From the NCBI GenBank assembly GCA_013297865.1, contig JAAFIP010000004.1, forward strand, positions 186,001 through 250,000: a stretch of 64,000 bases of DNA. Reading direction: 5' to 3'. The DNA comes from Polaromonas sp. (lineage in GTDB: Bacteria; Pseudomonadota; Gammaproteobacteria; Burkholderiales; Burkholderiaceae_C). Below are positions 4,702 to 17,547 of this stretch, piece by piece (within the stretch, counting starts at the first letter, position 1; every line of letters begins with the position of its first letter). The notes below the pieces were generated by a model. It did no database searches, was not told where the DNA came from, and worked only from the letters and a program-made list of their open reading frames with translations. The position numbers were made by a program, and so were the translations under genes.

Positions 4702-5331
4702 TCAGCCCTTCGCTTTTTTAGCCGCCACCATATCTGCCAACTCTTTGCCACTCTTGTAGTGCGGCACCCTGAGAACCAAGCGCTTGCTGCGTTGCCAGAA
4801 GCTGTTGCTGGTGGCGACTTCGTCTTTCCAGTACTTGTCCGCCAGCGCAATGTTGGCGGGGACGTCGAGCAAGAATCCGTCTCTGGAGCCTGCGCCACCA
4901 AAGATGTAGAGCTTGCCGTCGATCATGCGCCAGCTGTCAGCGTCGCCACCCCAGGGGATACCGTAAACAATGCCGTTGGCACAATAGCCGCCATATTGCG
5001 GCAGGTATTTGGTGGGCTCTTTGTCAAACAGGGCTTTGTTTTCTGCGCTGGCAAAATGAAAATTGACACCCTCATAGACGCTGGCAAACTGGGCGCTGCC
5101 CATGGCGTGTTTGTTTTGTGTGAAGTAAGACACCACGTCGTGGCCTTTGAGCATGACGGGGCTCGTGCCATCCACAACATGCGCATTGACAGGCTTGAGT
5201 GCGCCACCGGGGTTTTGCGCCTGCATGGCAGAGCATCCCATCAGGCAGGCCACCATACCTGCTACTAAAAGCGTGGCAAGGTTCTGAAATAGGGGAGAAC
5301 GTGCAACACGCAGTGCAGTAGCGGTGGTCAT
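4702..5331 (-). CDS. YHS-domain lipoprotein (tandem paralogue 1)
   Basis: A 209-residue predicted lipoprotein: hydrophobic N-terminus and lipobox CLMGC with the lipidation Cys at residue 33. The rest matches the YHS-domain pattern: KGHDVVSYF, then YEGVNFHFAS, ALFDKEPTKYLPQYGGYCA, and a C-terminal part with DADSWRMIDGKLYIFGG. YHS domains are thought to bind metal or accompany metal-handling proteins, but the role of the secreted form is not established. It follows its near-identical paralogue by six bases and is the last gene of the eleven-gene cluster. Confidence 0.85.
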   Translation of the reverse strand: MTTATALRVARSPLFQNLATLLVAGMVACLMGCSAMQAQNPGGALKPVNAHVVDGTSPVMLKGHDVVSYFTQNKHAMGSAQFASVYEGVNFHFASAENKALFDKEPTKYLPQYGGYCANGIVYGIPWGGDADSWRMIDGKLYIFGGAGSRDGFLLDVPANIALADKYWKDEVATSNSFWQRSKRLVLRVPHYKSGKELADMVAAKKAKG

Positions 5332-5337
5332 GGCGTG

Positions 5338-5973
5338 CTATCCCTTGGCTTTTTTGGCAGCCACAAGCTTGGCAATATCGTCGCCACTCTTGTAGTGGGG
5401 TACTTTAAACACGAGGCGTTTGGAGCGTTGGATAAAGCTGTTGCTGCCCTTGACCTCTTCAGCCCAGTATTTTTCTGCCAATGCCATATTGGCAGGTATG
5501 TCTACTTCAAAGCCGTCTTTGGAGCCTTGGCCGCCAAAGATATAGAGCTTGCCGTTTTGAATCATCCAAGTGTCGGCGTCGCCACCCCAAGGGATACCAT
5601 ACACAATGCCGTTGGCGCAGTAGCCGCCAAATTGTGGAATGTATTTGGTGGGCTCTTTGTCGAACAGGGCCTTGTGCTCTGCGTTGGCAAAGCGGAACGT
5701 GACACCTTCGTACTGGCTGGTAATTTGCGCGCTGCCCATGGCATGTTTGTTTTGCGTAAAGTAAGACACTACGTCGTGCCCTTTGAGCATGACAGGGCTG
5801 ACTTCGTCCACCACATGGGCGTTGACGGGCTTGAGCGCGCCGCCAGGATTTTGTGCATTGATGGCAGCGCAGCCCATTAGACTGGCCATTGCACCTACGG
5901 CCAGCACGGTCGCTGCGCGCCGCAGGGTGGTGGCCATGTGGTTACGGCTTGATGGGTGTGCGCGAGAGAGCAT
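5338..5973 (-). CDS. YHS-domain lipoprotein (tandem paralogue 2)
   Basis: A second YHS-domain lipoprotein with the same order of motifs as its neighbour (QNPGGALKPVNAHVVD, KGHDVVSYFTQNKHAMGSAQ, GGYCANGIVYGIPWGGDAD). I chose ATG at 5973 because its A is the last base of the TAA stop of the ATP-grasp gene (TAATG), a usual coupling signal; it gives 211 residues with the lipobox SLMGC at about residue 35. An in-frame ATG at 5937 (199 residues) gives a more compact signal peptide, and one at 5991 is also possible. The two lipoproteins clearly arose by tandem duplication. Confidence 0.83.
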   Translation of the reverse strand: MLSRAHPSSRNHMATTLRRAATVLAVGAMASLMGCAAINAQNPGGALKPVNAHVVDEVSPVMLKGHDVVSYFTQNKHAMGSAQITSQYEGVTFRFANAEHKALFDKEPTKYIPQFGGYCANGIVYGIPWGGDADTWMIQNGKLYIFGGQGSKDGFEVDIPANMALAEKYWAEEVKGSNSFIQRSKRLVFKVPHYKSGDDIAKLVAAKKAKG

Positions 5974-7367
5974 TATGTTGAAAGTTTCCATGAGGGAGCA
6001 GGGGGGGTAAGTGGGTTGGCGTGGTCTGGACGGGCAGAGGTTTCGTGTGCACCTGCGTGCAAAGCGCTATCGGCATAAGGCACTGGCCATTGCAACACGG
6101 CACTGGCAGCGTCCAGTCTGGCGCGCAGGTCGCTGGCGTCTCGTCCTCCTAGATGCAAGATGCCATAGCGGTAACTGCCCAGCCATTTAAAGTCTCGTGC
6201 CAGTGAATGCCCTGCTTTGGGAAACTGCAGTAGCAAATGGTCAGAAAATTTGTGCCTCAGCTCAGCCAGCTGTGCTGCGCTGGGCATCGGCGGTATGCTC
6301 TGGGTGAGGTGGGCCGCCTGGTCGTCAAACACGCGATAAACTGAACTGGTAGCAATATTGGCTGTCGGCAAGATGCGTGGTGCGGCCCAGGGGTCTTGCC
6401 CGTGGGCCAGGGCCAGAGCCATGGCGTACAGGTCAATACCGTCCACGCGCAGGTACAGGTCGGCAAACTGTGAGGCCATGCGCGGGTTGAACTCGATCAC
6501 GGTCAGCTTGTCAGTAGCCGCATCGTAGAAAAACTCCATATTGAACATGCCGTAGGTGAAGCCTACGGCATTCAAAAACCGGGTGGCAATGTCGAGCGCC
6601 CGAGCCTTAATGTCGGCTGCCAGCTTGCTGGGGTAGTCAAAACGCATGAAAGCCTGGGTGCCAGGGTACATCACCGCATCAACCACGCCCAAAGGCCTGG
6701 TCTGGCCGTTGTGCACAATGCCGTCGAGGCAGTATTGCGTAGCGTGCACCGGGGTTTCCAGCATCATGCTGTGGGCTGTGCTGGCCAGTGGCAGCAGGCG
6801 CTTGGCCACGCGCTCAAAGGGCTCGACCAGGCGTTTGATCACCCACAGCTCATACGCGCCAAAGCGTGTAAAGCGGTGCAGCTCGTCCTGGGTGCGCACA
6901 ACTTTTGCCAGTACTGAGAAGGCCGCTTTGATGGGTTTGACAAAGGTGGGGTACGCAAGGCCAGTGGGTGCCGGGTCGCCATAGGCGCAGGGCAGGCGCT
7001 GGAACTGGGTGTTGGCTTCGGGGCAGACTTTTTGCAGTACCTCGCGGGCATACAGCTTGTGCTGGCAGGCGGCAACAGCAGCCGGCGGTGTGCCTGGCCA
7101 GCCCATTTTGTCGGCCAGCAGGGCAGCGGTCAGCGCGCCAAACTGTTCGTGCTGCGAGGCCACTGCCGTCCAGCCCTGGTCTTTGGCCTGGCGCGCCAGC
7201 TTGTTGACCATGCGGTCCATGTCAAACAGCACCAGGTGCGCATTGCTCGGGAAGGAAAACAGGTCAAAACCCCGGCTGTCAAAACGTGCGCCCGTATCGC
7301 GCCCCAGGCGCGCAAAGCCGTCTGCATCCCAGTCGTAATTGAAAAGTAAGAGCGTTTTGCCGGTCAT
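5973..7367 (-). CDS. ATP-grasp domain protein
   Basis: A 464-residue cytoplasmic protein. After an N-terminal preATP-grasp-like part (LLLFNYDWDADG, NAHLVLFDMDRMV) it has an ATP-grasp fold of the carbamoyl-phosphate-synthase/biotin-carboxylase type: YPTFVKPIKAAFS (ATP-binding Lys), YELWVIKRLVEPFE, and the metal-binding stretch MEFFYD...TVIEFNPRMASQFADLY. Such enzymes join a carboxylate to an amine or thiol using ATP; the substrate cannot be read from the sequence. The ATG at 7367 overlaps the TGA of the flavoprotein gene (ATGA). An open frame extends further upstream but overlaps that gene and lacks conserved features. Confidence 0.85.
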   Translation of the reverse strand: MTGKTLLLFNYDWDADGFARLGRDTGARFDSRGFDLFSFPSNAHLVLFDMDRMVNKLARQAKDQGWTAVASQHEQFGALTAALLADKMGWPGTPPAAVAACQHKLYAREVLQKVCPEANTQFQRLPCAYGDPAPTGLAYPTFVKPIKAAFSVLAKVVRTQDELHRFTRFGAYELWVIKRLVEPFERVAKRLLPLASTAHSMMLETPVHATQYCLDGIVHNGQTRPLGVVDAVMYPGTQAFMRFDYPSKLAADIKARALDIATRFLNAVGFTYGMFNMEFFYDAATDKLTVIEFNPRMASQFADLYLRVDGIDLYAMALALAHGQDPWAAPRILPTANIATSSVYRVFDDQAAHLTQSIPPMPSAAQLAELRHKFSDHLLLQFPKAGHSLARDFKWLGSYRYGILHLGGRDASDLRARLDAASAVLQWPVPYADSALHAGAHETSARPDHANPLTPPAPSWKLST

Positions 7368-8431
7368 GTTAAGTATTGTCGAATCCAGCGTTGATTTATT
7401 ACATCGCGAACACGCCAAGCCAGGCTGCCTTGAAAACTCATGGTACCCCAACTGGCTATAGCAGTACGGTCGCCACAGCTGAGCAGATTCAGGCCTTGAG
7501 GCCTGCGTGCGGCGATTTTGACGGGCTGTGCATCCAGCGCGGCACGCAGGTTCAGGTGCTGGGCCACGCGGGAGCCTGAAGATACACTGCCAGCAGCAAA
7601 CACATGGAGGTCTGAGGTCGATTGACCGGCAGAGTTCACTGCAATCTGTTGATCCTCTGTTAGTGCTAACCCTGAGCTGGCCAGCCATGGCGGTGGCTGC
7701 CCGCGCAGCGCCAGCACAGGCACATCGCAGGACACACTGGCCCCGGAGTGCAGATGGAGCCGGTCTGCTTCGATCGCAACGCAGTCGCTGTGCAGCACGG
7801 TGATGTTGCGGCGCCTTAAGGTGGACAGCAGGCGTTGCTGCACGCTGCGCGCGTGCCGGGCGGCTACAGGCTGGCTGCCCGCGATCAGCGTCACACGGCA
7901 GTGCGGCAGGCGATGCTGCAGCGCCAGCGCCAGCTCGACGCCCAGGGCATCTGCCCCACTGACAATGCTGATATGCAAGGCTTGGTGCTCGGCGTGCGAC
8001 AGCAGCTGGGGCCAGAGCCGGGCGAACAGGGCCTCGGGATACACAAACACCGCATGTTCCTTGGCGCCGGGCATGAGCGTGTCGACACTGGCTCGGTCTA
8101 CAGGCAGGCCGGTGGCGATGCTCAGCACGTCATAGTGCAGGGTGCTGCCATCAGCCAGCTGCAGCTGGCGGGCTGAGGTGTCGATGCCTGTGCAACTGCT
8201 ATAGCGGGTTTTGATGCTGCTGGCGGCCAGCCAGTCGGGCAGGTGCAGGCTGCATTGCTCCAGGCCGTAGTGGCCGGCCACCACGCTGGGCAGCATGCTG
8301 CGCGGCAGCATCAGGTCATGCGGGGTGACCAAGTGCACATCGGTGTCAGCCCGTGGCATGGCCTTGAAGGCTGCCAGTGCGTCGATGTGGGCATGTCCAG
8401 CGCCCAGAAAAACCAGTTTTTTGATGGTCAA
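7364..8431 (-). CDS. FAD-dependent oxidoreductase, NDH-2 / SelD-associated type
   Basis: A 355-residue flavoprotein of the pyridine nucleotide-disulfide oxidoreductase superfamily. The N-terminus IKKLVFLGAGHAHID carries the dinucleotide fold with GAGHAH in place of GxGxxG. This feature is known from NDH-2-like proteins fused to or encoded near selenide water dikinase (TIGR03169-like). LSIATG near residue 105 and VFAAGS near residue 285 are the usual FAD contacts. The start is inferred as TTG at 8431, which overlaps the TGA of the DUF3047 gene (TTGA); an upstream open frame lacks conservation. No CxxxxC redox pair is visible. No selD is in the window, so a selenium role is unsupported. Confidence 0.8.
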   Translation of the reverse strand: MTIKKLVFLGAGHAHIDALAAFKAMPRADTDVHLVTPHDLMLPRSMLPSVVAGHYGLEQCSLHLPDWLAASSIKTRYSSCTGIDTSARQLQLADGSTLHYDVLSIATGLPVDRASVDTLMPGAKEHAVFVYPEALFARLWPQLLSHAEHQALHISIVSGADALGVELALALQHRLPHCRVTLIAGSQPVAARHARSVQQRLLSTLRRRNITVLHSDCVAIEADRLHLHSGASVSCDVPVLALRGQPPPWLASSGLALTEDQQIAVNSAGQSTSDLHVFAAGSVSSGSRVAQHLNLRAALDAQPVKIAARRPQGLNLLSCGDRTAIASWGTMSFQGSLAWRVRDVINQRWIRQYLT

Positions 8432-9195
8432 GGTGACACCACAATATCGGTGACATACCCCAGGCTCGTGCCCTCGGTGTTGTCTGAATCTGCTCCCACT
8501 ATGATAGCAGTTACCGGCGGCACTGTGGTGGTTTCGTTGCCAAAAGCCTTCAAAAAGTCTGCACTCACATTGCGCTGGTGCTCTTGCCAGGTCTTGAGCT
8601 GGCCTTCGCCGCTGTTGACGACGATGTAATGCACCCTGCCCGTGTAGGGGCTGGTGATCTCCATACCCGATGCTTCGGCATGTGCCCAGATGTAGCACAG
8701 CGTGGCGGTGGGCAGTTTGTCCTTGCTGGACAGCTGGGCCAGGCGAAACAGCGTGCGCTCGCCAGCAGGAATGCTGGCCACCGGCATATCAAAGCTCAGG
8801 CAGACTTTGAGGGCGATGTCTTCGGTCTTTTTGTATCGCAGATCGGCTTTGAGCAGGGGGACATCAAGCCGCCATTGCCATTTCAGGCTGGACAGCGAGC
8901 CCTTCCAGTCGTACACCATGTTGCCGTAAGACTTGTCGGCGCGCACGCGCAGGACTTTTTTGCCGTCCACCTCACTGATATCAAACTGCGTAGAAGGCCT
9001 GGAGTAGCGCTCGGGCAGGCCCACAAAATGCCAGGGCGCGGGAGGCTGCTCTCCACTGGCGGTTGAGAAGGCGCTGGGGCCTGCCGCCCACGCTGGCGCG
9101 TTAGCGCCCAGCGTCGTTAAGAGACCAGTCGTAATCCAGATGGCTGATGGGTACAGTTTTGGCACGAAGCTGTCCTTGAATGTTGGCATCTGCAC
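8428..9195 (-). CDS. DUF3047 exported protein
   Basis: A 255-residue protein whose N-terminus looks like a signal peptide (hydrophobic SAIWITTGLLTTLGA, cleavage after APAWA). The body matches DUF3047: KVLRVRADKSYG, LKWQWRLDVPLLKADLRYKKTEDIALKVCLSFD, and the C-terminal IIVGADSDNTEGTSLGYVTDIVV with its acidic D-D pattern. The function is unknown; the beta-rich pattern suggests a carbohydrate-binding-like sandwich (inference). The ATG at 9195 lies 95 bases inside the end of the DUF547 gene, an unusually long same-strand overlap. A later start would lose the signal peptide, so the overlap is probably real. Confidence 0.78.
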   Translation of the reverse strand: MQMPTFKDSFVPKLYPSAIWITTGLLTTLGANAPAWAAGPSAFSTASGEQPPAPWHFVGLPERYSRPSTQFDISEVDGKKVLRVRADKSYGNMVYDWKGSLSSLKWQWRLDVPLLKADLRYKKTEDIALKVCLSFDMPVASIPAGERTLFRLAQLSSKDKLPTATLCYIWAHAEASGMEITSPYTGRVHYIVVNSGEGQLKTWQEHQRNVSADFLKAFGNETTTVPPVTAIIVGADSDNTEGTSLGYVTDIVVSP

Positions 9196-9925
9196 TCAGT
9201 GTATCTGCGTATTTGGCAAACACATCTTCCACTTTGCTGAAACCTTTGTAACCTTTTTCGAAATCTTCCTTGAACCATTTGAAAATGCTTGATACCTGAA
9301 GTTTCCCATCAGCATAGCGGTTGCGTGTTTTGTCACCCACAAAGCGCTTCATGCCGTCTTCGAGCTGGCTGTCAAGCTTGGCCGCGGTAAAGGCCTCGGG
9401 TGGCAGCGCGGGGCAGCCAATGCTGGCGCAGACGATGGCCACATGGATGCGCGGGTCCTGAAAGCCGCCTCCGGCAATGTTGGGGCGCAGACGCTCGTGC
9501 TCGATCCAGTCCAGATTGCGCTCTTCACCCAGCAGCGGGAAGAACTTCTTTTTCCACGGGCTGGAAAAAGTGGTTCCCAGGTCCTTGATGGACTTGAGGT
9601 TGGGATATTTGCTGAGGATGAGTTCGATCGTGTAGGCGTTGTAGGCGTTGATCAAAAACGCCATCTGCTGCTCTTTGCTAAAGGCTCCGTACTGCGCTGA
9701 CGTCACGGCGCTGAAGCTTTCCAGCACCTTGGTCAACTCAGCCCGTTCTGCAGCAAAACCTTTGTAGTTCACGCGGCTTTGCTTGTTGTCCGGCAGCCAT
9801 TTGACATGCTTTTTCACCTGGGCGTCCCAGGCGGCGTAATTGTGGTCAAAACCTTGGGCAAATGCGGCTCCAGCCCAATGGAATATCGCGGCGGCAGCTA
9901 TTAAAAATATAGTAAATCGTTTCAT
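9101..9925 (-). CDS. DUF547 exported protein
   Basis: A 274-residue protein with signal peptide (MKRFTIFLIAAAAIFHWAGAAFA) and the DUF547 domain: MAFLINAYNAYTI, SPWKKKFFPLLGEERNLDWIEHERLR, DPRIHVAIVCASIGCPALPPEAF. DUF547 proteins have a conserved Cys and His pattern (here CASIGCP), suggestive of a papain-like or transglutaminase-like fold, but no activity is settled. The hydrophobic core and cleavage site of the signal peptide (IAAAAIFHWAGAA) are encoded by a copy of the dispersed repeat, with the same frame and orientation as in the second M16 peptidase of this window. Confidence 0.85.
   Translation of the reverse strand: MKRFTIFLIAAAAIFHWAGAAFAQGFDHNYAAWDAQVKKHVKWLPDNKQSRVNYKGFAAERAELTKVLESFSAVTSAQYGAFSKEQQMAFLINAYNAYTIELILSKYPNLKSIKDLGTTFSSPWKKKFFPLLGEERNLDWIEHERLRPNIAGGGFQDPRIHVAIVCASIGCPALPPEAFTAAKLDSQLEDGMKRFVGDKTRNRYADGKLQVSSIFKWFKEDFEKGYKGFSKVEDVFAKYADTLSADANIQGQLRAKTVPISHLDYDWSLNDAGR
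9865..9915 (-). repeat. Dispersed ~50-bp repeat, copy 2 (inside a signal peptide)
   Basis: Minus-strand copy. Relative to the DUF547 gene it reads forwards and encodes I-F-L-I-A-A-A-A-I-F-H-W-A-G-A-A. It differs from the consensus at a few bases (GCCGCCGCG for GCTCCCGCG, CCATTGG for CTATTGG), and the changes keep the signal-peptide character. Confidence 0.82.
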
Positions 9926-9995
9926 GGATACTCCTCAAAGATGCGTTGTACAAAATTGGAGTGGGCAAAAACCTGGATAGTTCAATGCCGCACGT

Positions 9996-12158
9996 TCAGC
10001 CGCGGCGCCAATCATGGTATTTTTTAACGAACTCCAGCAATTTGACGGGCTGGTGGGCGCGTTTCCATTCTCCAGCGACGTATTTGTTGGACTCTGCCAG
10101 CGTGGGGTAGGCGTGGATGGTGCCTAGGATTTTTTCCAATCCCAAGCCATGCTTCATCGCCAGCACGTATTCGGCCAGCAAGTCACCTGCGTGCACGCCA
10201 ACAATCGTTACGCCAAGGATCTTGTCTTTGCCTGGTACCGTCAGTACCTTGATAAAACCGTGTGCTTCACTGTCAGCAATAGCACGGTCCAGGTCGTCAA
10301 TGCCGTACTTGGTGACTTCATACGGCACGTTTTGCGCTTTCGCTTCCAACTCGTTCAGGCCTACGCGGGCTACCTCAGGGTCGATAAATGTGGCGGCCGG
10401 GATGATGCGGTAGTCGGCCTTGAATTTCTTGAAAGTGCCAAACAGGGCGTTGACTGCGGCATACCAGGCTTGGTGCGCAGCGGTGTGGGTGAACTGGTAG
10501 GGGCCCGCTACATCGCCAGCCGCAAAGATGTTGGGGTACAGGGTTTCCAGATACTCGTTGGTGTCCACGGTGCGGCTGGTAGGAATGCCCAAGTCTTCCA
10601 GTCCATAGCCCTTGAGGCGCGCAATGCGGCCTACCGCGCAAATCACTTCATCAAACTCAATGCGCTTTTCTGCGCCGGCGTGTTCAACGATCAAGGCTTT
10701 CACGCCGCCCACGCTTTCAAAACGCAAGGCTTTGTGGCTGGTCAATACCTTCACGCCATCGCTGCTGAGGGATTTTTGCGCATGCGCGGACACCTCTTCG
10801 TCCTCGCGGATCAAGATGCGCGGGGCCATTTCTACCTGCGACACCTCAGAGCCCAGCCGGGCAAAGCTCTGCGCCAGTTCGCAGCCAATCGGGCCACCGC
10901 CGAGCACTACCAAGCGCTTGGGCACGGCGTCCAGTTTGGCAAAGGCGTCCCATAAGGTGTCGCTGGTCACATAGCCCGACTGCTCAATACCCGGCAATGG
11001 CGGTACTACGGGGCTGGCACCAGCGGCAATCACGATGCTGCGGGTGGTCAGTGTTTTCTTGCTGCCATCGTTCATGGCAATCTCCACCGTCCACGGGTTG
11101 ACGATCTTGGCGTAGCCCTGCAGCACATCCACACCCAGGCCCGTGAAGCGCTCTACGCTGTCGTGCGGCGCAATGGCGGCAATGATGTCGTGCACGCGTT
11201 GCATCACCGCTTTGAAGCTGAAGGTGGGCGAGGCGGCGTTCAGGCCGTAGTTTTCTGCATGGCGCATCATGTGGGCCAGCTTGGCCGACTTGATAATCGC
11301 CTTGCTGGGCACGCAGCCAAAGTTCAGGCAGTCGCCGCCCATTTTGTGGGCTTCTACCAAAGTCACTTTGGCCTTTACCGCAGCGCCAATCAAAGCGGTG
11401 ACCAAGCCGCCAGCGCCTGCGCCTATGACGATCAGGTTGCGATCAAATGTGGCTGGCTTGACATGGTTCCAGCGGGCATATACCTTGCGCCGCTTGACGG
11501 CGTCGACAATTCTTTTGGCGATGAGCGGAAACACCCCCAGCAGCACAAATGAGCCCAGCAAACCCGGCGACAAAATGCCCTTGAGTGAGTCGATCTTGGC
11601 CAGCTGCGTGCCCGCATTCACAAACACCACGGTGCCCAGAAACATGCCCAACTGGCTGACCCAGTAAAAGGTCCAAGTCTTCATTTTGGTCAGACCCATC
11701 AGCAGGTTGATGACAAAGAAAGGCACCAGGGGTACGAGGCGCAAGGTAAACAGATAGAACGCACCTTCTTTTTCCACGCCTTTGTTGATCTCGGCCATGC
11801 GCTGGCCGAACTTGGCCTGCACCGAGGAGCCCAGCACAAAGCGTGCGGCCAAAAACGCCAGGGTGGCGCCGATACTTGAGGCAAATGACACAATCAACGT
11901 ACCGGCAACCAAGCCAAAAATCGCACCTGCAGCAAGCGTCAATATGGCTGCACCAGGCAGGGACAATGCGGTCACGGCCACATACACGGCAAAAAACGCC
12001 GCAATCACCAGGCCTGGCTGGTTGCTGTAGAGCGCGGCAAACGTAGCCTGGCTGCTCTTGATATAGCCCAGGCTGAAGAATCGGCCCAAATCAAGGGCGA
12101 AGAAAGCGATGATGGCGGCCAGTAAGGCCACCAAGATGATGATTTTTTTCTTGTCCAA
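9996..12158 (-). CDS. TVP38/TMEM64 membrane domain fused to mercuric-reductase-like FAD oxidoreductase
   Basis: A 720-residue fusion. Residues 1-220 are a TVP38/TMEM64 (VTT, DedA-like) membrane domain with about five to six hydrophobic segments and the conserved FLAARFVLG and TLRLVPLVPFFVINLLMG stretches. Residues 240-715 are a class I pyridine nucleotide-disulfide oxidoreductase: FAD motif GAGAGG (246-251), redox pair in GGDCLNFGCVPSK (Cys277, Cys282), a second dinucleotide motif in LVVLGGGPIGCELA, FAAGDV, and a C-terminal dimer domain ending near HAYPTLAESNKY, the His-Glu active-site region. It lacks an N-terminal MerA HMA domain. It probably passes electrons from NAD(P)H to a disulfide or membrane partner; the substrate is unknown. 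E. coli keeps two TVP38 proteins (YdjX, YdjZ) beside ynjBCDF. Confidence 0.9.
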   Translation of the reverse strand: MDKKKIIILVALLAAIIAFFALDLGRFFSLGYIKSSQATFAALYSNQPGLVIAAFFAVYVAVTALSLPGAAILTLAAGAIFGLVAGTLIVSFASSIGATLAFLAARFVLGSSVQAKFGQRMAEINKGVEKEGAFYLFTLRLVPLVPFFVINLLMGLTKMKTWTFYWVSQLGMFLGTVVFVNAGTQLAKIDSLKGILSPGLLGSFVLLGVFPLIAKRIVDAVKRRKVYARWNHVKPATFDRNLIVIGAGAGGLVTALIGAAVKAKVTLVEAHKMGGDCLNFGCVPSKAIIKSAKLAHMMRHAENYGLNAASPTFSFKAVMQRVHDIIAAIAPHDSVERFTGLGVDVLQGYAKIVNPWTVEIAMNDGSKKTLTTRSIVIAAGASPVVPPLPGIEQSGYVTSDTLWDAFAKLDAVPKRLVVLGGGPIGCELAQSFARLGSEVSQVEMAPRILIREDEEVSAHAQKSLSSDGVKVLTSHKALRFESVGGVKALIVEHAGAEKRIEFDEVICAVGRIARLKGYGLEDLGIPTSRTVDTNEYLETLYPNIFAAGDVAGPYQFTHTAAHQAWYAAVNALFGTFKKFKADYRIIPAATFIDPEVARVGLNELEAKAQNVPYEVTKYGIDDLDRAIADSEAHGFIKVLTVPGKDKILGVTIVGVHAGDLLAEYVLAMKHGLGLEKILGTIHAYPTLAESNKYVAGEWKRAHQPVKLLEFVKKYHDWRRG

Positions 12159-12250
12159 GGCTTCACTCCTCGCTTATAGCTAATGTGTAGGATAGTCGAA
12201 TCTGCAAAATAGTCGTGCAGTGACGGTAATTCTTACTGATGGAGGCCAGC

Positions 12251-12856
12251 TTACTGCAGGCTGTGCAAGCCACCATAGATGCGTGTGGCGATAGTGACAC
12301 AACACAGCGCACTAAACAAGTACGCCAGAGGCGCAAAATGCTGCGGCCACAGACACATGGCGATAAAACAGGCCAGGGTTTCGGTGGCTTCGGTCAGGCC
12401 ACCAAGGTAATAGAAGGATTTGTGGGGGTAGTCAATGCTCTGGATATTGCGCTTGGCTGCCATGATGGCAAACGCCAGAAAGCTAGCACCTGTGCCTACA
12501 AAAGCCGCCAGCAGCGCTGCAGCGGGCAGTGCGTTGACAGATGGGTCCGCTAGCGCAAAAGCCAGGGGAATGCTGGCGTAGAACACAAAATCCAGCGTGA
12601 TGTCCAGAAATCCGCCTGCATCGGTCGGTGCGGTCTGCCGTGCCACCGCGCCATCAAGCGCGTCGCACAGCCGCGAGAGCAGGATAAATGCAGCGCCCCA
12701 CAGATAAGCGCGAGTGGCGATGCATGCTGCTGCCACCAAGCCCAGAGCCAGTGCAAACCAGGTCACGTGGTCAGCCTTGATGCCTGCACGCACCAGCGCG
12801 CTGGCGATGCCTTCCACCATCGGTTTGATCAGTGGGGTGATGTGGCGGTCCAGCAT
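12251..12856 (-). CDS. CDP-alcohol phosphatidyltransferase family protein (YnjF-like)
   Basis: A 201-residue membrane enzyme with about five or six transmembrane segments. It carries the CDP-alcohol phosphotransferase signature: Asp65, Asp68-Gly69, Ala72-Arg73, a Gly near 81, Asp85 and Asp89. This family moves a phosphatidyl group from CDP-diacylglycerol to an alcohol, making phospholipid headgroups; the acceptor here is unknown. Its place just after the ABC ATPase gene (six bases) matches E. coli ynjD-(ynjE)-ynjF, with no sulfurtransferase gene in between here. Confidence 0.87.
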   Translation of the reverse strand: MLDRHITPLIKPMVEGIASALVRAGIKADHVTWFALALGLVAAACIATRAYLWGAAFILLSRLCDALDGAVARQTAPTDAGGFLDITLDFVFYASIPLAFALADPSVNALPAAALLAAFVGTGASFLAFAIMAAKRNIQSIDYPHKSFYYLGGLTEATETLACFIAMCLWPQHFAPLAYLFSALCCVTIATRIYGGLHSLQ

Positions 12857-12862
12857 GGTGGT

Positions 12863-13483
12863 TTACAGTTGTACCACAGCCTGTGGGTCGGCAATGTCGG
12901 CACTGTCATGCGTGACCAGCAGTGCGGGCAGGCCCTGTTTGCGCACATGGTCAAACACGAAGTCGCGAAATTGCTGGCGCAGCGCTGCATCCAGCTTGGA
13001 AAACGGCTCGTCCAGCAGCAAGGCCTGTGGCTGGGCCAGCAAAGTGCGCAGCAGCGATACCCGCGCCCGCTGGCCACCAGACAGCGTGGTGGGGCTGCGC
13101 TGTGCCATTGCGGCAAAGCCCAGCTCGGCCAGAGCCGCCTGCACGGCGGCCTCACGCTGGGCTGCTGGCCCAGGCGGTACGGCAAACAACAGGTTGTCAT
13201 GCACGCTCATATGCGCAAACAGCAGGTCGTCCTGAAACAGCATGCCGATGCGCCGCTGGGCGCAGGGCAGGTGGGCCACAGAGCGCCCGGCAAGCTGGAT
13301 GTCCCCGTCAAACTGCAGGCCACTGTCCAGCGTGCCGCACACGGCGGCCAGCAGGCTGGATTTGCCCGATCCGCTGGCTCCCATCAAGGTGACGATCTGA
13401 CCGGGTGCGCAGTGCACATGCAGGTTGCTGACCAGCACATGGCCGTCAGTGCGCAGCGTGTTGATGTGGATATCGAGGGTCAT
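12863..13483 (-). CDS. ABC transporter ATP-binding protein (YnjD-like)
   Basis: A 206-residue ATPase from the ATG at 13483; upstream in-frame ATG codons overlap the permease gene and add no conserved sequence. Walker [10 protein letters not shown] is near residue 34, Q-loop LFQDD, signature LSGGQRARVSLLRTLLA, Walker B ALLLDEPFSKLD, H-loop VTHD. It is short for a family of about 200-240 residues and lacks a regulatory C-terminal domain, like YnjD and ThiQ. It serves the fused permease encoded 20 bases upstream. Confidence 0.88.
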   Translation of the reverse strand: MTLDIHINTLRTDGHVLVSNLHVHCAPGQIVTLMGASGSGKSSLLAAVCGTLDSGLQFDGDIQLAGRSVAHLPCAQRRIGMLFQDDLLFAHMSVHDNLLFAVPPGPAAQREAAVQAALAELGFAAMAQRSPTTLSGGQRARVSLLRTLLAQPQALLLDEPFSKLDAALRQQFRDFVFDHVRKQGLPALLVTHDSADIADPQAVVQL

Positions 13484-13503
13484 CGCGGGCAGTTTAAATG
13501 GCG

Positions 13504-15189
13504 TTAAATGGTGTGAAAGCGGCGTGGTCGGCCCAGCCAGGCTGCCAAGGCAAAGCCCAGCGCTGGGATCAACCATTGCAACCAGGCATAGGCCGCCACC
13601 AGAGAGCGCTGGCCTCCAGAGGCCAAGGTGACTGCCTCGGTGGTGACAGTGCTAAAGCGCCCTTCGCCCACGTACAGCGTAGGCAGATACTGCGCAACGC
13701 TCACAGCCAGGCCCACGGCAGCGGCGGCGCACAGGCTGGCACGCAGCATGGGCCATTTGACCTTGAGCAAAAACGCACCATAGCTGCGCCCCAGGCTTGC
13801 GCTGATGTGCGCATACCGCGGATCGAAGCCCAGATAGGCCGGGCTCAGCGCAATCATCACATAGGGCAGCACAGCCAGGCTGTGCGCAGCGACCAGAGCG
13901 CTGAAGCTGCTGCCCCAGCCGACCCACAGCGTAATGCGGTGCAAACCTACGACCCACAATACTGAAGGCAGCAGCAAAGGCAGATACAGAGGCCAGCGGA
14001 TGGACTTGTCCCAGCCTGTCGGGGCACATTCAAGCCATGTGACGGCCCACAGCAAGGCCAGCGCCGTGCTCGAAAAGGCCAATGCCAACGTGGTGCTGAC
14101 GGTGGTAAAGCTCTGCAGCACGCTGATCCAGGCCTGCAATGACCAATTGTCTGGCAACCATCTGGGAAAAGGCCATACGCCTGAAAAGCTGCCCAGCAGC
14201 AGGGCCAGCAGCACAGCGCCGTAAACCGTGCACAGCACGATGACAAAGGCCTGTCCTCCTGCACGCTGCGGCCTGTCGGTGCCGCGCGTGCCGGTCAGCG
14301 GCTGCAGATGCTGGGCCAGACGCGACAGGCCATATCCAGCCAAAGCAGCCAACGCGACGGTGCCTGCCAGCAGCCAGCCAGCCACCGCGCCTTGGGCGTT
14401 AGTCAGTTCATCGGCGTCCTGCAGCCATTGCCAGGCCAGCACGGACAGGGTCGATGGATTGGATGATCCGGCAATCTGGGCGACATCCACCACGGTCAAT
14501 CCATAGGCCAGCACAGCCAACACAGGCCAGCGGATACGCACTGCCAGCTGGGGCCAGACCACGCGCCAAAAAGCCCTCTGGCGGGCATAGCCCAGCGTCT
14601 GCGCGGCTTGCAGCTCACGTGCCAGGCGCTGGCCCGTATCGTCGCGCTGCAGCTGCGTGGCCAGGGCCCAGAGCAAAAAAGGGACTTCCTTGAAGACCAG
14701 CACGGCGATCATGCCCAAGCCCCAAGGGTCTTGCGAGGTAAGCCAGGGGGGCGGCTGCGTGAAGCCGGTTAACCAGGGCGAGACGGCGCGCAGCAGCCAA
14801 CCGCTGGGAGAGACCAAAAATACCCAGCCCACGGCGAAGGCTGCATGGGGCACCGCCAGCATGGGGCTGAGCATGCGCACCGCTGCAGCCCAGGCGGGTG
14901 TGGCAAAACTGCGCGCCACGACTGCCGCAGCCAGGGCATAGGCCAGCGCTGTCGAGGCCAGGCCCGTCCAGACGGTCATAGCCCAGGCAGGACGCAGCAC
15001 AGATGCAGTGCCCAGCTCGCGCCAGGCAGATGGCTCCGTGGCCGCAGCGATACAGGCCCACAGCACGGCCAGCAAAGGCAGCAGCACTATCGATGCCAGC
15101 AGGGTATTGCGCAGCCCACGCACGCTGCGCGCAGCGCGGGTGCGGGGTGCCCAGGCGTTCAGTGTCAGGCTCCGTAGCGGCGTAGCCAC
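13504..15189 (-). CDS. ABC transporter permease with two fused membrane domains (YnjC-like)
   Basis: A 561-residue inner-membrane protein made of two BPD-type permease halves (roughly residues 25-280 and 300-555), each with about six membrane segments and an EAA-type loop (AAQTLGYARQRAFWRVVWPQLA in the first; SASLGRSYGAFLLKVKWPML in the second). The fused architecture is that of YnjC, ThiP and FbpB. It overlaps the substrate-binding gene by 25 bases. Confidence 0.88.
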   Translation of the reverse strand: MATPLRSLTLNAWAPRTRAARSVRGLRNTLLASIVLLPLLAVLWACIAAATEPSAWRELGTASVLRPAWAMTVWTGLASTALAYALAAAVVARSFATPAWAAAVRMLSPMLAVPHAAFAVGWVFLVSPSGWLLRAVSPWLTGFTQPPPWLTSQDPWGLGMIAVLVFKEVPFLLWALATQLQRDDTGQRLARELQAAQTLGYARQRAFWRVVWPQLAVRIRWPVLAVLAYGLTVVDVAQIAGSSNPSTLSVLAWQWLQDADELTNAQGAVAGWLLAGTVALAALAGYGLSRLAQHLQPLTGTRGTDRPQRAGGQAFVIVLCTVYGAVLLALLLGSFSGVWPFPRWLPDNWSLQAWISVLQSFTTVSTTLALAFSSTALALLWAVTWLECAPTGWDKSIRWPLYLPLLLPSVLWVVGLHRITLWVGWGSSFSALVAAHSLAVLPYVMIALSPAYLGFDPRYAHISASLGRSYGAFLLKVKWPMLRASLCAAAAVGLAVSVAQYLPTLYVGEGRFSTVTTEAVTLASGGQRSLVAAYAWLQWLIPALGFALAAWLGRPRRFHTI

Positions 15190-16376
15190 TCTTTCTCCAG
15201 AGGGTCTACCCAGCTGCCGTGTGGCTCAGGCAGGACGGGCGCAGAGCGCTCCACCTGGCCGGCTGCTGCGGTGGCAGTAAAGCGCGCAGCCTCTGCTGCA
15301 GGCAGCTTACCTGGTGCCAGTACGGTGGGGTCTCCCCAGATGCTGATGTCTGCCTTGCGCGCCTGGGCCATCGGTGAGAGCAAAAAGTTGGCCGCTACCT
15401 GGGCGGCCTCTTTGCCTTTGGCGTTGAACGGGATGGCCAGGAAATGGGTATTGCCTACGGTGCCAGAGTCAAACTGGTAGCTGTAGACAGTTTTGGGCAG
15501 CCGGCCTGCTGCAATCTCATTGGCAGCTTCATTGGGGTTGAAGGTCAAGGCTAGCATCAGTTCGCCGTCAGCCATCATTTGACGCACGTTGGCGGAATTG
15601 GCTGCAAACTGTTTACCACTGCGCCACAGATGGGAGTGCAGCGCATCCAGGTGTTTCCACAGGGGCTCTGTCACTTTGGCAAAAGCGTTGGCATCGTAGG
15701 GTTTGTACAGCGCAGCTTTGTCACTGGTCAGATCCAGCAGGGCCTGCTTGACGAAGGTGGTGCCATGAAAGTTGGGCGGCTTGGGGTAGGTCACGCGGCC
15801 AGGGTTGGTGCGGGCAAACTCCAGCAGGGCGGCAGTGCTGCGCGGCGCGTTGGGGACCTTGGCACGGTCAGCAAAAAATGTCAGCTGGGCCATGCCCCAA
15901 GGCGCTTCCATGCCCTGCACGGGTTCGGAAAAATCAATACGCGTCGTGGGCTTGCCTTCCGTATCCACAAACCTGAAGTTGGGCAGACTCTCTGCAAACG
16001 GACCAAACAGCATTCCTTCGCGTTTCATGGCCAGAAAGTTTTCGCCGTTGATCCACACCATGTCAACAGAACCATCCGCTACGCGGCCGGCAACTTTTTC
16101 ACTGCGAACGCGCTTGACTACATCAGCCGTATCGGTCACTTTGACATGCTCCAGCTTGACGCCAAACTGCTTGTCCAGCTCAGCGGCGGCCCAGACCAGA
16201 TACGCGTTGATGCGCTCACTGCCGCCCCAAGCGTTGAACACGACAGTTTGGCCGCGGGCTTTCTTTTCCAGATCACTCCATGCGCTCGTCTGGGCGGACG
16301 CCCAGGGCGAGAGGCTCATGAGGGCAGCGGCAGTGCCGCTGCCAAGCAGGGTGCGGCGGTCAATCATGTGGGGCAT
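15165..16376 (-). CDS. ABC transporter substrate-binding protein (YnjB-like)
   Basis: A 403-residue periplasmic binding protein. The N-terminus MPHMIDRRTLLGSGTAAALM followed by SLSPWASAQ has twin Arg plus a short hydrophobic stretch, suggesting Tat export. The mature part begins ARGQTVVFNAWGGSERIN and has VDMVWINGENFLAMKREG, typical of the YnjB / thiamine-spermidine-like binding family. The ATG at 16376 has AAGGAA upstream at good distance. It is the first gene of the eleven-gene cluster, so the main promoter should lie in 16377-16476. The ligand is unknown. Confidence 0.87.
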   Translation of the reverse strand: MPHMIDRRTLLGSGTAAALMSLSPWASAQTSAWSDLEKKARGQTVVFNAWGGSERINAYLVWAAAELDKQFGVKLEHVKVTDTADVVKRVRSEKVAGRVADGSVDMVWINGENFLAMKREGMLFGPFAESLPNFRFVDTEGKPTTRIDFSEPVQGMEAPWGMAQLTFFADRAKVPNAPRSTAALLEFARTNPGRVTYPKPPNFHGTTFVKQALLDLTSDKAALYKPYDANAFAKVTEPLWKHLDALHSHLWRSGKQFAANSANVRQMMADGELMLALTFNPNEAANEIAAGRLPKTVYSYQFDSGTVGNTHFLAIPFNAKGKEAAQVAANFLLSPMAQARKADISIWGDPTVLAPGKLPAAEAARFTATAAAGQVERSAPVLPEPHGSWVDPLEKEWLRRYGA

Positions 16377-16476: not shown

Positions 16477-17547
16477 CTACTGCAGCAAGGCCTGTGAGAA
16501 TTCTCGGGCACTGAAAGTTTCCAGGTCTTCGAGTTTTTCTCCTACGCCGATGAAATAGACGCCCAGCGGCTTGAGTGCAGGCTGTTTGACCGCACGCTCG
16601 CGCGCCCACAGTGCAATGGCTGCAATCACCCCGCCTTTGGCAGTGCCGTCCAGTTTGGTGATGATCAGCCCGGTGACCTGCAGGGCATCGTCAAATGCCT
16701 TGACCTGAGTGAGGGCGTTCTGCCCGGTGTTGCCGTCAATCACGAGCAGTACCTCATGCGGAGCTGACGCGTCAGCCTTGGTGACCACACGCTTGATTTT
16801 TTTGATCTCTTCCATCAGGTGCAGTTGGGTGGGCAGGCGACCCGCCGTGTCCACCATCACCACATCGCGGCCACGTGCCTTGCCAGCGCTCACGGCATCA
16901 AAGCTCACTGCCGCCGGGTCACCACCGTCCTGGCTGATGATCTCCACACTGTTGCGGTCGGCCCAGACGCCCAGCTGCTCGCGCGCAGCGGCCCGAAAGG
17001 TGTCCGCCGCAGCCAGCAGCACGCTGGCACCCGAGTCGGCCAGATGCTTGGTAAGCTTGCCAATTGAGGTAGTTTTGCCAGCGCCATTGACGCCAGCGAT
17101 CATCATCACTGTAGGCTTGTGCTCGCCAATCACCAGCGGCCTTTGCAGAGGCAGCAGCAGCTCGGTGAAGGCATCGGCTAGCAAAGCCTTGACGGCTGCA
17201 GGGTCGGTAGTTTTGGATTCCTTGACGCGGCGCTTGAGGTCGGCCAGCAGGTGTTCTGTAGCGCCCACACCCGCGTCGCTCATCAAGAGGGCCGATTCGA
17301 GTTCTTCATACAGGGCATCATCGATCTGCGTGCCTGTGAACACGGTGGCAATTGAGCTGCCAGTCTTGCGCAGGCCATTTTTGAGCTTGGTAAGCCAGCC
17401 CTGGCGCGGGGCAGCAGTTGCGGTGCTGCTGACCAAGGCAGCCTCTGTGCTGGCTGCCACAGGCGTGGCGCTGACCAGGGCGGGGGGCACAGTTTCCACT
17501 GCAGGTGCAGGGATTTCAGGGGCTTTTTTACGGAAAAACGAGAACAT
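16477..17547 (-). CDS. ftsY: Signal recognition particle receptor FtsY
   Basis: The 356-residue SRP receptor GTPase, which brings ribosome-SRP complexes to the Sec translocon. An N-terminal Pro/Ala-rich A region (to about 50) is followed by the N domain and by the G domain with P-loop GVNGAGKTT (152-160), DTAGRLPTQ and TKLDGTAKGG. The start is only 29 bases from the oppositely directed M16 peptidase start. Confidence 0.96.
   Translation of the reverse strand: MFSFFRKKAPEIPAPAVETVPPALVSATPVAASTEAALVSSTATAAPRQGWLTKLKNGLRKTGSSIATVFTGTQIDDALYEELESALLMSDAGVGATEHLLADLKRRVKESKTTDPAAVKALLADAFTELLLPLQRPLVIGEHKPTVMMIAGVNGAGKTTSIGKLTKHLADSGASVLLAAADTFRAAAREQLGVWADRNSVEIISQDGGDPAAVSFDAVSAGKARGRDVVMVDTAGRLPTQLHLMEEIKKIKRVVTKADASAPHEVLLVIDGNTGQNALTQVKAFDDALQVTGLIITKLDGTAKGGVIAAIALWARERAVKQPALKPLGVYFIGVGEKLEDLETFSAREFSQALLQ

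Follow-up and report, generated by a model that had tools for sequence, protein, structure and literature searches.

Background

What does an importer of the YnjBCD type bring into the cell? YnjBCD and the ydjXYZ-ynj locus are still without an assigned job in a very well studied organism, Escherichia coli, and the question is raised again by a contig of Polaromonas sp. (assembly GCA_013297865.1, 3.99 Mb in total; contig JAAFIP010000004.1), of which a stretch of 64,000 nucleotides (positions 186,001 to 250,000, hereafter the window) was analysed. Positions 4702-16376 of the window are filled by eleven open reading frames on the minus strand, in transcription order ynjB, ynjC, ynjD, a YnjF-like CDP-alcohol phosphatidyltransferase, a fusion of a VTT domain with a flavoreductase (the TVP38 fusion), DUF547, DUF3047, a TIGR03169-type flavoprotein, an ATP-grasp protein and two YHS lipoproteins, the same number, strand and order that a sequence-only reading of this DNA had given. 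The answer put forward here, tentatively and at somewhat less than even confidence, is that YnjBCD imports a ribose-type organometalloid, probably an arsenosugar-like compound that other bacteria make with ArsS, and that the module shared by both serves the redox chemistry of arsenic and selenium. With an enzyme that is apparently replaced (ArsS) and a close partner (a SelD-linked flavoprotein) the question on YnjBCD becomes sharper, and it now has a testable substrate class.

Genomes and loci

Genomes of the GTDB were scanned for YnjB, and the best 80 of 589 confirmed loci were used. The 33 closest of these (L055-L087) are all titled betaproteobacteria, and the 47 more distant ones (L088-L134) come mostly from other groups. 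The wider locus map holds 112 loci with YnjB and 20 with ArsS, with flanks of varying length; the gene names in most loci are tblastn matches to the protein of the window or of a relative. Occurrence in genomes was counted in 200 genomes drawn evenly from the host family, with partly fragmented assemblies. The genome counts and p-values ignore phylogeny, and the limit for TIGR03169 (E<=1e-70) was chosen after the first TIGR03169 results had been seen.

A modular cluster

The eleven genes form a real, modular cluster. YnjB, YnjC, YnjD and the YnjF-like CDP-alcohol transferase make up an entry module; the TVP38 fusion, DUF547, DUF3047, the TIGR03169 flavoprotein, the ATP-grasp protein and the two YHS lipoproteins belong to a redox/envelope module. 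As these modules recur across many genera, the cluster is not a product of chance. Eight of the ten gene junctions overlap or span at most about 35 bases (a figure that depends on the choice of start codons), so that the spacing of within 25 bases described earlier is largely confirmed, but gaps of 92 bases upstream of the TVP38 fusion and of 70 bases upstream of DUF547 depart from it, and because of these the genes may be transcribed as up to three units. Scans for promoters (5 sites vs. 4.3 in shuffled sequences) and terminators (20 vs. 19.0) gave about the same numbers as the shuffles, and a scan of the window for tRNAs found none.

In the 33 closest loci, some of them on short contigs, the order YnjB-YnjC-YnjD-CDP-alcohol transferase-TVP38 fusion-(DUF547)-DUF3047-(TIGR03169) is common, with the TVP38 fusion in 15, DUF3047 in 12 and the transferase in 18 of them; the corresponding numbers for the 47 more distant loci are 6 (one match being weak and partial), 0 and 14. 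The core, that is TVP38 fusion, CDP-alcohol transferase, YnjBCD and a TIGR03169-type protein, is found in varied order in Betaproteobacteria, in other orders again on plasmids of Alphaproteobacteria (Pseudooceanicola, Ciceribacter, Falsirhodobacter and Paracoccus aestuarii), and in Gammaproteobacteria as TVP38 fusion and YnjBCD with either the transferase or TIGR03169. Six of the plasmid flavoproteins were scored and reached 287-369 bits against TIGR03169, five of them above its cut-off. Plasmids of Pseudoalteromonas and Catenovulum carry a TonB receptor, the TVP38 fusion, DUF547, YnjBCD and the transferase, which places a TonB receptor beside the YnjBCD form in two Alteromonadales, and the YnjBCD form is present in three isolates from algae.

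The co-occurrence expected by the sequence-only reading is therefore seen for the core, which recurs in Alpha-, Beta- and Gammaproteobacteria, beyond close relatives, but not for the full set of eleven, which is local. Among the mapped loci, that of Variovorax sp. PCZ-1 (L073) alone has ten of the eleven genes in one place, and its cluster is without the TIGR03169 gene. Of the 112 YnjB loci, 4 have ATP-grasp and 8 have DUF547, and there are loci in which the redox module adjoins senABC or ArsS and YnjBCD is missing. On these counts I reject an eleven-gene unit.

A cut copy of the cluster adjoins resistance genes on the Salmonella IncC plasmid NZ_MH760469 (L245, about 106,700-115,600), where bufferin genes, TVP38 fusion, TIGR03169 and YnjB are followed by a cut permease beside IS26; plasmid records of Klebsiella, Providencia, Citrobacter and E. 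coli gave search matches with identities equal to those of this copy.

YnjB or ArsS

ArsS adenosylates arsenic in the biosynthesis of oxo-arsenosugars, as stated in a passage of PMC12159101. In the family sample ArsS (TIGR04167) is found in 24 of the 200 genomes, and all 24 belong to the 62 genomes with TIGR03169 (in 21 of the 24 above the curated cut-off), as do all 31 genomes with YnjB. Only one genome (G065) has both YnjB and ArsS, whereas chance would give 12 among the 62 (hypergeometric p 2.5e-9, phylogeny ignored), and eight of the 62 have neither, some of their assemblies being incomplete. This avoidance appears only within the genomes with TIGR03169. The locus map gives the same picture, as none of its 112 YnjB and 20 ArsS loci contains both.

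The exchange did not happen just once. A quick tree was made of 64 TVP38 fusions, with 42 rows labelled YnjB, 17 ArsS and 5 neither; for family genomes the label refers to the whole genome, for named loci and plasmids to the record seen. On this tree a minimum of nine changes is required for the YnjB/ArsS label, and the starred branches force at least six for the ArsS label; the partner has therefore been swapped repeatedly and not in a single split.

The accompanying genes differ as well. The arsenosugar transferases, of the families TIGR04282 and TIGR04283, occur in 13 of the 112 YnjB loci and in 16 of the 20 ArsS loci. Within the loci that have them, an APH kinase is present in 10 of 13 with YnjB vs. 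0 of 16 with ArsS (p 1e-5), and a methylthioadenosine phosphorylase in 0 of 13 vs. 8 of 16; over all loci the phosphorylase is found in 0 of 112 vs. 10 of 20, and the CDP-alcohol transferase in 52 of 112 vs. 0 of 20. A 22 kb stretch of a Sphingopyxis sp. FD7 plasmid contains a TonB receptor, a NupC-type nucleoside transporter, the CDP-alcohol transferase, the TVP38 fusion and TIGR03169; YnjBCD is absent from this stretch, and the nucleoside transporter and TonB receptor stand in its place. The transporter scores 249 bits against TIGR00804 (cut-off 442), with three Pfam domains above their cut-offs. In one betaproteobacterial locus (L086:13477-14823) TIGR04283 and TIGR04282 are fused in a single reading frame of 449 codons.

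In the open PMC library I found no paper joining two or more of YnjB, TVP38, arsenosugar, TIGR03169/Nterm_to_SelD and TIGR04553, and among the papers listed none that names an importer of organoarsenicals. Excerpts of published work identify slr0303 as arsM and slr0305 as a TVP38 homologue, and their numbering alone suggests that these two genes are adjacent.

Selenium genes

TIGR03169 is found in 62 of the 200 family genomes at E<=1e-70 and in 54 above the curated cut-off. At the former limit it is present in all 31 YnjB genomes vs. 31 of the 169 others (Fisher p 2e-19, phylogeny ignored), and 29 of these YnjB genomes also score above the curated cut-off, the window genome by means of a TIGR03169-SelD fusion and not of the protein in the cluster. 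Eighteen of the 31 have TIGR03169 as a fusion with SelD (in G064 with the gene in two pieces on separate contigs), the other 13 as a standalone protein. Seven of these 13 have it in the YnjB locus itself, two (G005 and G138) have it elsewhere, near a TVP38 fusion and DUF3047, and in the other four the contig with YnjB is short. A separate and weaker copy (E<=1e-38) exists in two of the 18 genomes with the fusion, those of the window and of G064 (p 5e-7).

On the contig of the window, 7-9 kb past the YHS end of the cluster, lie SenB and the 762-residue TIGR03169-SelD fusion on the strand of the cluster, and on the opposite strand a SenA-like gene, which I take to be SenA from its position and likeness (loci L007/L008). 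A homologue of egtD and the putative selenate binding protein TIGR04553 are encoded in this genome too (contig C21). Given these sen genes, the egtD homologue and TIGR04553, the host very probably makes selenoneine. Its SenB carries the EGGAHV motif, which is named for the selenosugar synthase in a passage of PMC10891094. Neither these genes, which lie outside the window, nor the link to arsenosugars were part of the sequence-only reading.

The family sample contains SelD in 181, SenB in 71 and TIGR04553 in 87 genomes. SelD is present in 31 of 31 YnjB genomes and lies within 40 kb of YnjB in ten of them (G000, G012, G071, G136, G137, G147, G148, G157, G187 and G212; p 3e-10 if a 2% chance is assumed for each and shared ancestry ignored). 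Among the 80 named loci SelD is in the flank of two (L079 and L094), and selD is 5.6 kb from ynjF in E. coli K-12 and 5-6 kb from it in a Klebsiella plasmid record. The genes senA, senB or selD adjoin the module in L135, L138 and L185-L189, and in the last five, which come from YnjB-free genomes, the redox module lies beside senA, senB, selD, egtD and the TIGR04553 transporter.

Several further observations concern the sen genes. SenB and TIGR04553 are strongly associated (54 of 71 vs. 33 of 129 genomes, p 5e-12), and the TIGR04553 transporter and egtD lie beside sen genes in L185:4745-8191, L186-L191 and L242. A second EgtB/SenA-like gene, 28% identical to SenA, is found near an ATP-grasp gene or a selenium transporter (L189:9585-10901, L187:12087-13322 and L243:18297-19472). 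In L138:6228-8253 a YnjE-like sulfurtransferase and another membrane gene stand beside SenB-SelD, adjoining a YnjBCD cluster. A 2005 paper by Ledgham is said to concern DedA and selenite.

Proposed function and alternatives

YnjBCD is found instead of ArsS while the downstream genes are equal, which is why I read it as the importer of the ArsS product or a relative of it, in a swap between making and importing a compound. The nucleoside transporter of Sphingopyxis and the fold of YnjB fit this reading without proving it. I infer what YnjBCD carries and in which direction, as well as the redox roles and the lipid step, in the following way. The compound taken up by YnjBCD would be a ribose-type organometalloid, with an arsenosugar or its nucleoside-like precursor as the most likely candidate, and the entry module would thereby substitute for its synthesis by the radical-SAM (S-adenosylmethionine) enzyme ArsS. 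The YnjF-like enzyme would couple the sugar or sugar phosphate to diacylglycerol, which would anchor it in lipid. Some APH-fold kinases act at the anomeric position, and the APH kinase and the phosphorylase could each yield a sugar 1-phosphate.

TVP38 proteins are handlers of membrane lipids, and the TVP38-flavoreductase, DUF547, DUF3047 and the TIGR03169 flavoprotein would make up a common membrane or periplasmic redox module, joined locally by the ATP-grasp and YHS proteins. Because it is common to both routes and tied to SelD, this module probably carries out low-valent metalloid chemistry; by reducing pentavalent arsenic and oxidised selenium it may keep the compounds of both elements reduced and usable. 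Its TIGR03169 part would also serve SelD, the fusion partner in many relatives, and hence the selenoneine pathway. On this reading YnjBCD would be a candidate importer of organoarsenicals, the TVP38-flavoreductases in arsenosugar loci would be explained, and bacterial arsenic and selenium metabolism would be joined. The single envelope pathway proposed in the sequence-only reading remains a fair frame in so far as it combines import, membrane redox and lipid chemistry, but it does not hold for all eleven genes as one unit, and that interpretation is partly supported.

A more general version is doubtful. According to it YnjBCD, that of E. coli included, imports arsenosugar-type organoarsenicals, which bacteria with ArsS make and others acquire from algae or food (in marine species through a TonB receptor), and which feed a redox and lipid machinery shared with selenium metabolism. 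If true, arsenic-containing sugars would be acquired metabolites and not detoxification waste alone.

A number of observations weigh against the import of an arsenosugar-like compound. Over all 200 genomes the avoidance between YnjB and ArsS is not significant (p 0.14), nor is the difference in APH kinase over all loci (13 of 112 vs. 0 of 20, p 0.22), and the locus counts include duplicates (L073/L139, L063/L146 and L022/L077). The window genome has no ArsS match at E<=1e-70, and TIGR04282 and TIGR04283 are not among the eleven genes, no search for them having gone beyond the stretches examined. A match to the TVP38 fusion lies in the flank of just 6 of the 47 more distant YnjB loci, and some loci, such as a stretch of S. 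meliloti pSymB, contain YnjBCD alone. Of the control genomes only that of E. coli has YnjB, and it gives no match to TIGR03169 even at E<=1e-38, so TIGR03169 is not a universal partner of YnjB, and the link between them extends over the host family and some plasmids but not over every YnjB. The nearness of selD may partly reflect a common spot beside ftsY, and the label "arsenosugar" is taken from NCBI family names and from excerpts of review text on ArsS.

Alternatively, the cluster may supply selenium: a compound of this element would enter through YnjBCD and be reduced to selenide by the two flavoproteins (TVP38 and TIGR03169), and SelD would pass it on to selenoneine and other selenium products. 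I consider this unlikely, though in its favour SelD is present in all 31 YnjB genomes of the sample, TIGR03169 is either fused to SelD or separate, and SelD lies within 40 kb of YnjB in 10 of the 31, with selD 5.6 kb from ynjF in E. coli. SenB is also commoner with YnjB (19 of 31 vs. 52 of 169 genomes, p 0.002), the YHS family holds selenocysteine in other bacteria according to excerpts of the literature, and passages in two reviews state that no high-affinity prokaryotic selenium transporter is known. However, SelD is present in 150 of the 169 genomes without YnjB too, and SenB is missing from 12 of the 31 with it. The putative selenate importer TIGR04553 is located beside senABC, and it shows no negative association with YnjB (16 of 31 vs. 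71 of 169, p 0.33); ArsS, and not this importer, is what YnjB avoids. As SelD is near-universal (181 of 200) and TIGR04553 independent of YnjB, I keep selenium import as the first rival of arsenosugar import and not as its replacement.

An explanation with rather poor prospects is that unrelated operons have gathered in a favoured spot beside ftsY, with YnjBCD as an ordinary importer of a nutrient, e.g. a sugar, a glycerophosphodiester or a thiamine-type compound. A gene that I take to be ftsY lies upstream of the cluster at 16477-17547, and FtsY is present in 29 of the 112 YnjB loci; the fold of YnjB ties with many sugar and UgpB proteins, and E. coli has YnjB without TIGR03169. Yet the same partners are found in other orders with no ftsY in the stretch and on plasmids of Alpha- and Gammaproteobacteria, and TIGR03169 is present in 31 of 31 YnjB genomes of the family sample. 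The sen cluster itself is near ftsY in L190 and L236; ftsY often adjoins the YnjB cluster and is perhaps a favoured site of insertion.

Genes of the bufferin (gig) metal-response operon, namely DUF2282-like, MNIO and DUF2063-like genes, often with DoxX and a sigma factor, lie directly upstream of and co-directional with YnjB in nine loci whose gene order is given (L057, L059, L060, L063, L078, L080, L082, L085 and L086). The MNIO gene occurs in 14 of the 112 YnjB loci, all 14 within the 33 closest and none among the 47 more distant, and on plasmids (IncC, B. glumae and Paracoccus) the TVP38 fusion likewise has bufferin genes as neighbours. Their position upstream of YnjB keeps alive a response to copper, gold or thiol stress, in which the cluster would be an accessory of this operon and handle damaged thiols or metal chelates, but I regard this as improbable, since the eleven-gene stretch and the majority of loci are without these genes, which also adjoin the TVP38 fusion where YnjBCD is missing.

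The eleven proteins

Most of the family labels given earlier hold, namely those of YnjB, the fusion of VTT with Pyr_redox, DUF547, DUF3047 and CDP-OH_P_transf; TIGR03169, ATP-grasp_4 and one Pfam YHS match are weaker and below their cut-offs. All coordinates are on the minus strand. The YnjB-like solute-binding protein (15165-16376, 403 residues) scores 527.7 bits against NF008633 (cut-off 203). Its AlphaFold model (pLDDT 92, built from 37 sequences) has the fold of a binding protein, but this fold names no ligand, as the 50 matches listed tie within VIA Z 25.9-28.0, with binders of sugars, dinucleotides and glycerophosphodiester/glycerophosphocholine among them. The YnjC-like fused double permease (13504-15189, 561 residues) is 33% identical to E. 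coli YnjC and 35-66% to relatives in clusters; it has no Pfam match at E<=0.001, and weak permease matches stay under the profile cut-offs. The YnjD-like ATPase (12863-13483, about 206 residues; the longest version of the frame begins at 13576) matches ABC_tran with 104 bits and is 47% identical to E. coli YnjD. The YnjF-like CDP-alcohol phosphatidyltransferase (12251-12856, 201 residues) is 52% identical to E. coli YnjF and scores 35.7 bits against PF01066, above the cut-off; its top NCBIfam match is archaetidylinositol phosphate synthase (67.7 bits, under the cut-off of 180).

The TVP38 fusion (9996-12158, 720 residues, TTG start) combines VTT_dom with Pyr_redox_2 and Pyr_redox_dim, a flavoreductase of the lipoamide-dehydrogenase/MerA type, and its nearest named relative in the tree is from Variovorax sp. 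PCZ-1; judged by its relatives, the host is a Comamonadaceae-like bacterium. Like disulfide reductases, the fusion contains a CxxxxC pair and a His-Glu motif. The 64 relatives with at least 600 aligned residues all have CxxxxC, and 61 of them have H-x-[YH]-P-[TS]-xx-E. Mercuric reductases have a C-terminal pair of cysteines; the last 30 residues of the fusion are without cysteine, and with 346.5 bits against TIGR02053 (cut-off 454.45) it was rejected as a mercuric reductase.

The exported DUF547 protein (9101-9925, 274 residues; PF04784, 87 bits, above the Pfam cut-off) has 13 called relatives, of which 12 carry a CAS-x-x-CP-type motif. The exported DUF3047 protein (8428-9195, 255 residues, although the real start may lie later; PF11249, 161.6 bits, above the Pfam cut-off) is predicted to be a beta-sandwich with weak matches (query TM 0.30-0.44 among the 50 listed), the best E-values being those of glucuronyl epimerase and ciliary chains, then of GH12 and CBM chains, and any likeness of the modelled fold to sugar-active beta-sandwiches is weak. 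The TIGR03169-type flavoprotein (7364-8431, 355 residues), a homologue of the N-terminal domain of SelD whose relatives are either standalone or fused to SelD, scores 198 bits against TIGR03169 (cut-off 310). The ATP-grasp ligase-like protein (5973-7367, 464 residues; PF13535, ATP-grasp_4, 25.1 bits, just under the cut-off of 27) has a family of seven called proteins in seven loci, two of them from one genome.

YHS lipoproteins a (5338-5991, starting at 5991 or 5937) and b (4702-5331, the tandem copy) score 108.3 and 110.6 bits against NF041384 (cut-off 70), which makes them members of this family, "YHS domain-containing (seleno)protein"; the Pfam YHS domain is above its cut-off in b (PF04945, 36.8 bits) and below in a (25.0 vs. 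30.3). The translations of both carry GGYC, with Cys at the site of the GxU motif of YHS (seleno)proteins that is described in a passage of PMC13188914. Another YHS-like stretch, with a DNA identity of 67% to window positions 4745-5156, is found in G000 (C21:1018-1435). Searches of PDB sequences gave no match for YnjB (threshold 0.001), DUF3047 (1), DUF547 (1) and ATP-grasp (0.1), and the roles proposed for DUF547, DUF3047, ATP-grasp and YHS are guesses.

Comparison with known systems

Compared to the senABC clusters for selenoneine, the contig of the window has a SenA-like gene, SenB and a fused TIGR03169-SelD 7-9 kb away, whereas the eleven genes themselves are not sen genes, and SenB is present in 19 of the 31 YnjB genomes. 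The TIGR04553 transporter is a selenium-linked importer beside senABC in relatives; however, its binding protein is of the PhnD type, a different family from YnjB, and its occurrence is independent of YnjB.

The loci of ArsS, TIGR04282 and TIGR04283 have the TVP38-flavoreductase and DUF547 in common with the window (e.g. on an Acinetobacter portensis plasmid, L249), and those of the Burkholderiales also DUF3047 and a TIGR03169-type protein. Unlike them, the window cluster has YnjBCD and the YnjF-like enzyme and is without ArsS, the phosphorylase or a transferase.

Like the window, the E. coli ydjXYZ-ynjABCDEF locus contains YnjB (49% identity), YnjC (33%), YnjD (47%) and YnjF (52%), and YdjX and YdjZ are 31% and 29% identical to the TVP38 fusion. 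However, the TVP38 proteins of E. coli are separate and without flavoreductase, whereas the window has the fusion; YdjY, YnjA and the sulfurtransferase YnjE are not among the eleven genes, and 26 kb around the E. coli locus gave no match to DUF547, DUF3047, the TIGR03169-type protein, ATP-grasp or YHS. The order YnjB-YnjC-YnjD-YnjF, which the sequence-only reading had ascribed to E. coli, does not occur there, as ynjE separates ynjD from ynjF, which is encoded on the opposite strand. In the window YnjB is above the NF008633 cut-off, and YnjC and YnjD homologues lie directly downstream of it; the importer is of the E. coli ynjBCD type, set in a cluster different from the E. coli locus.

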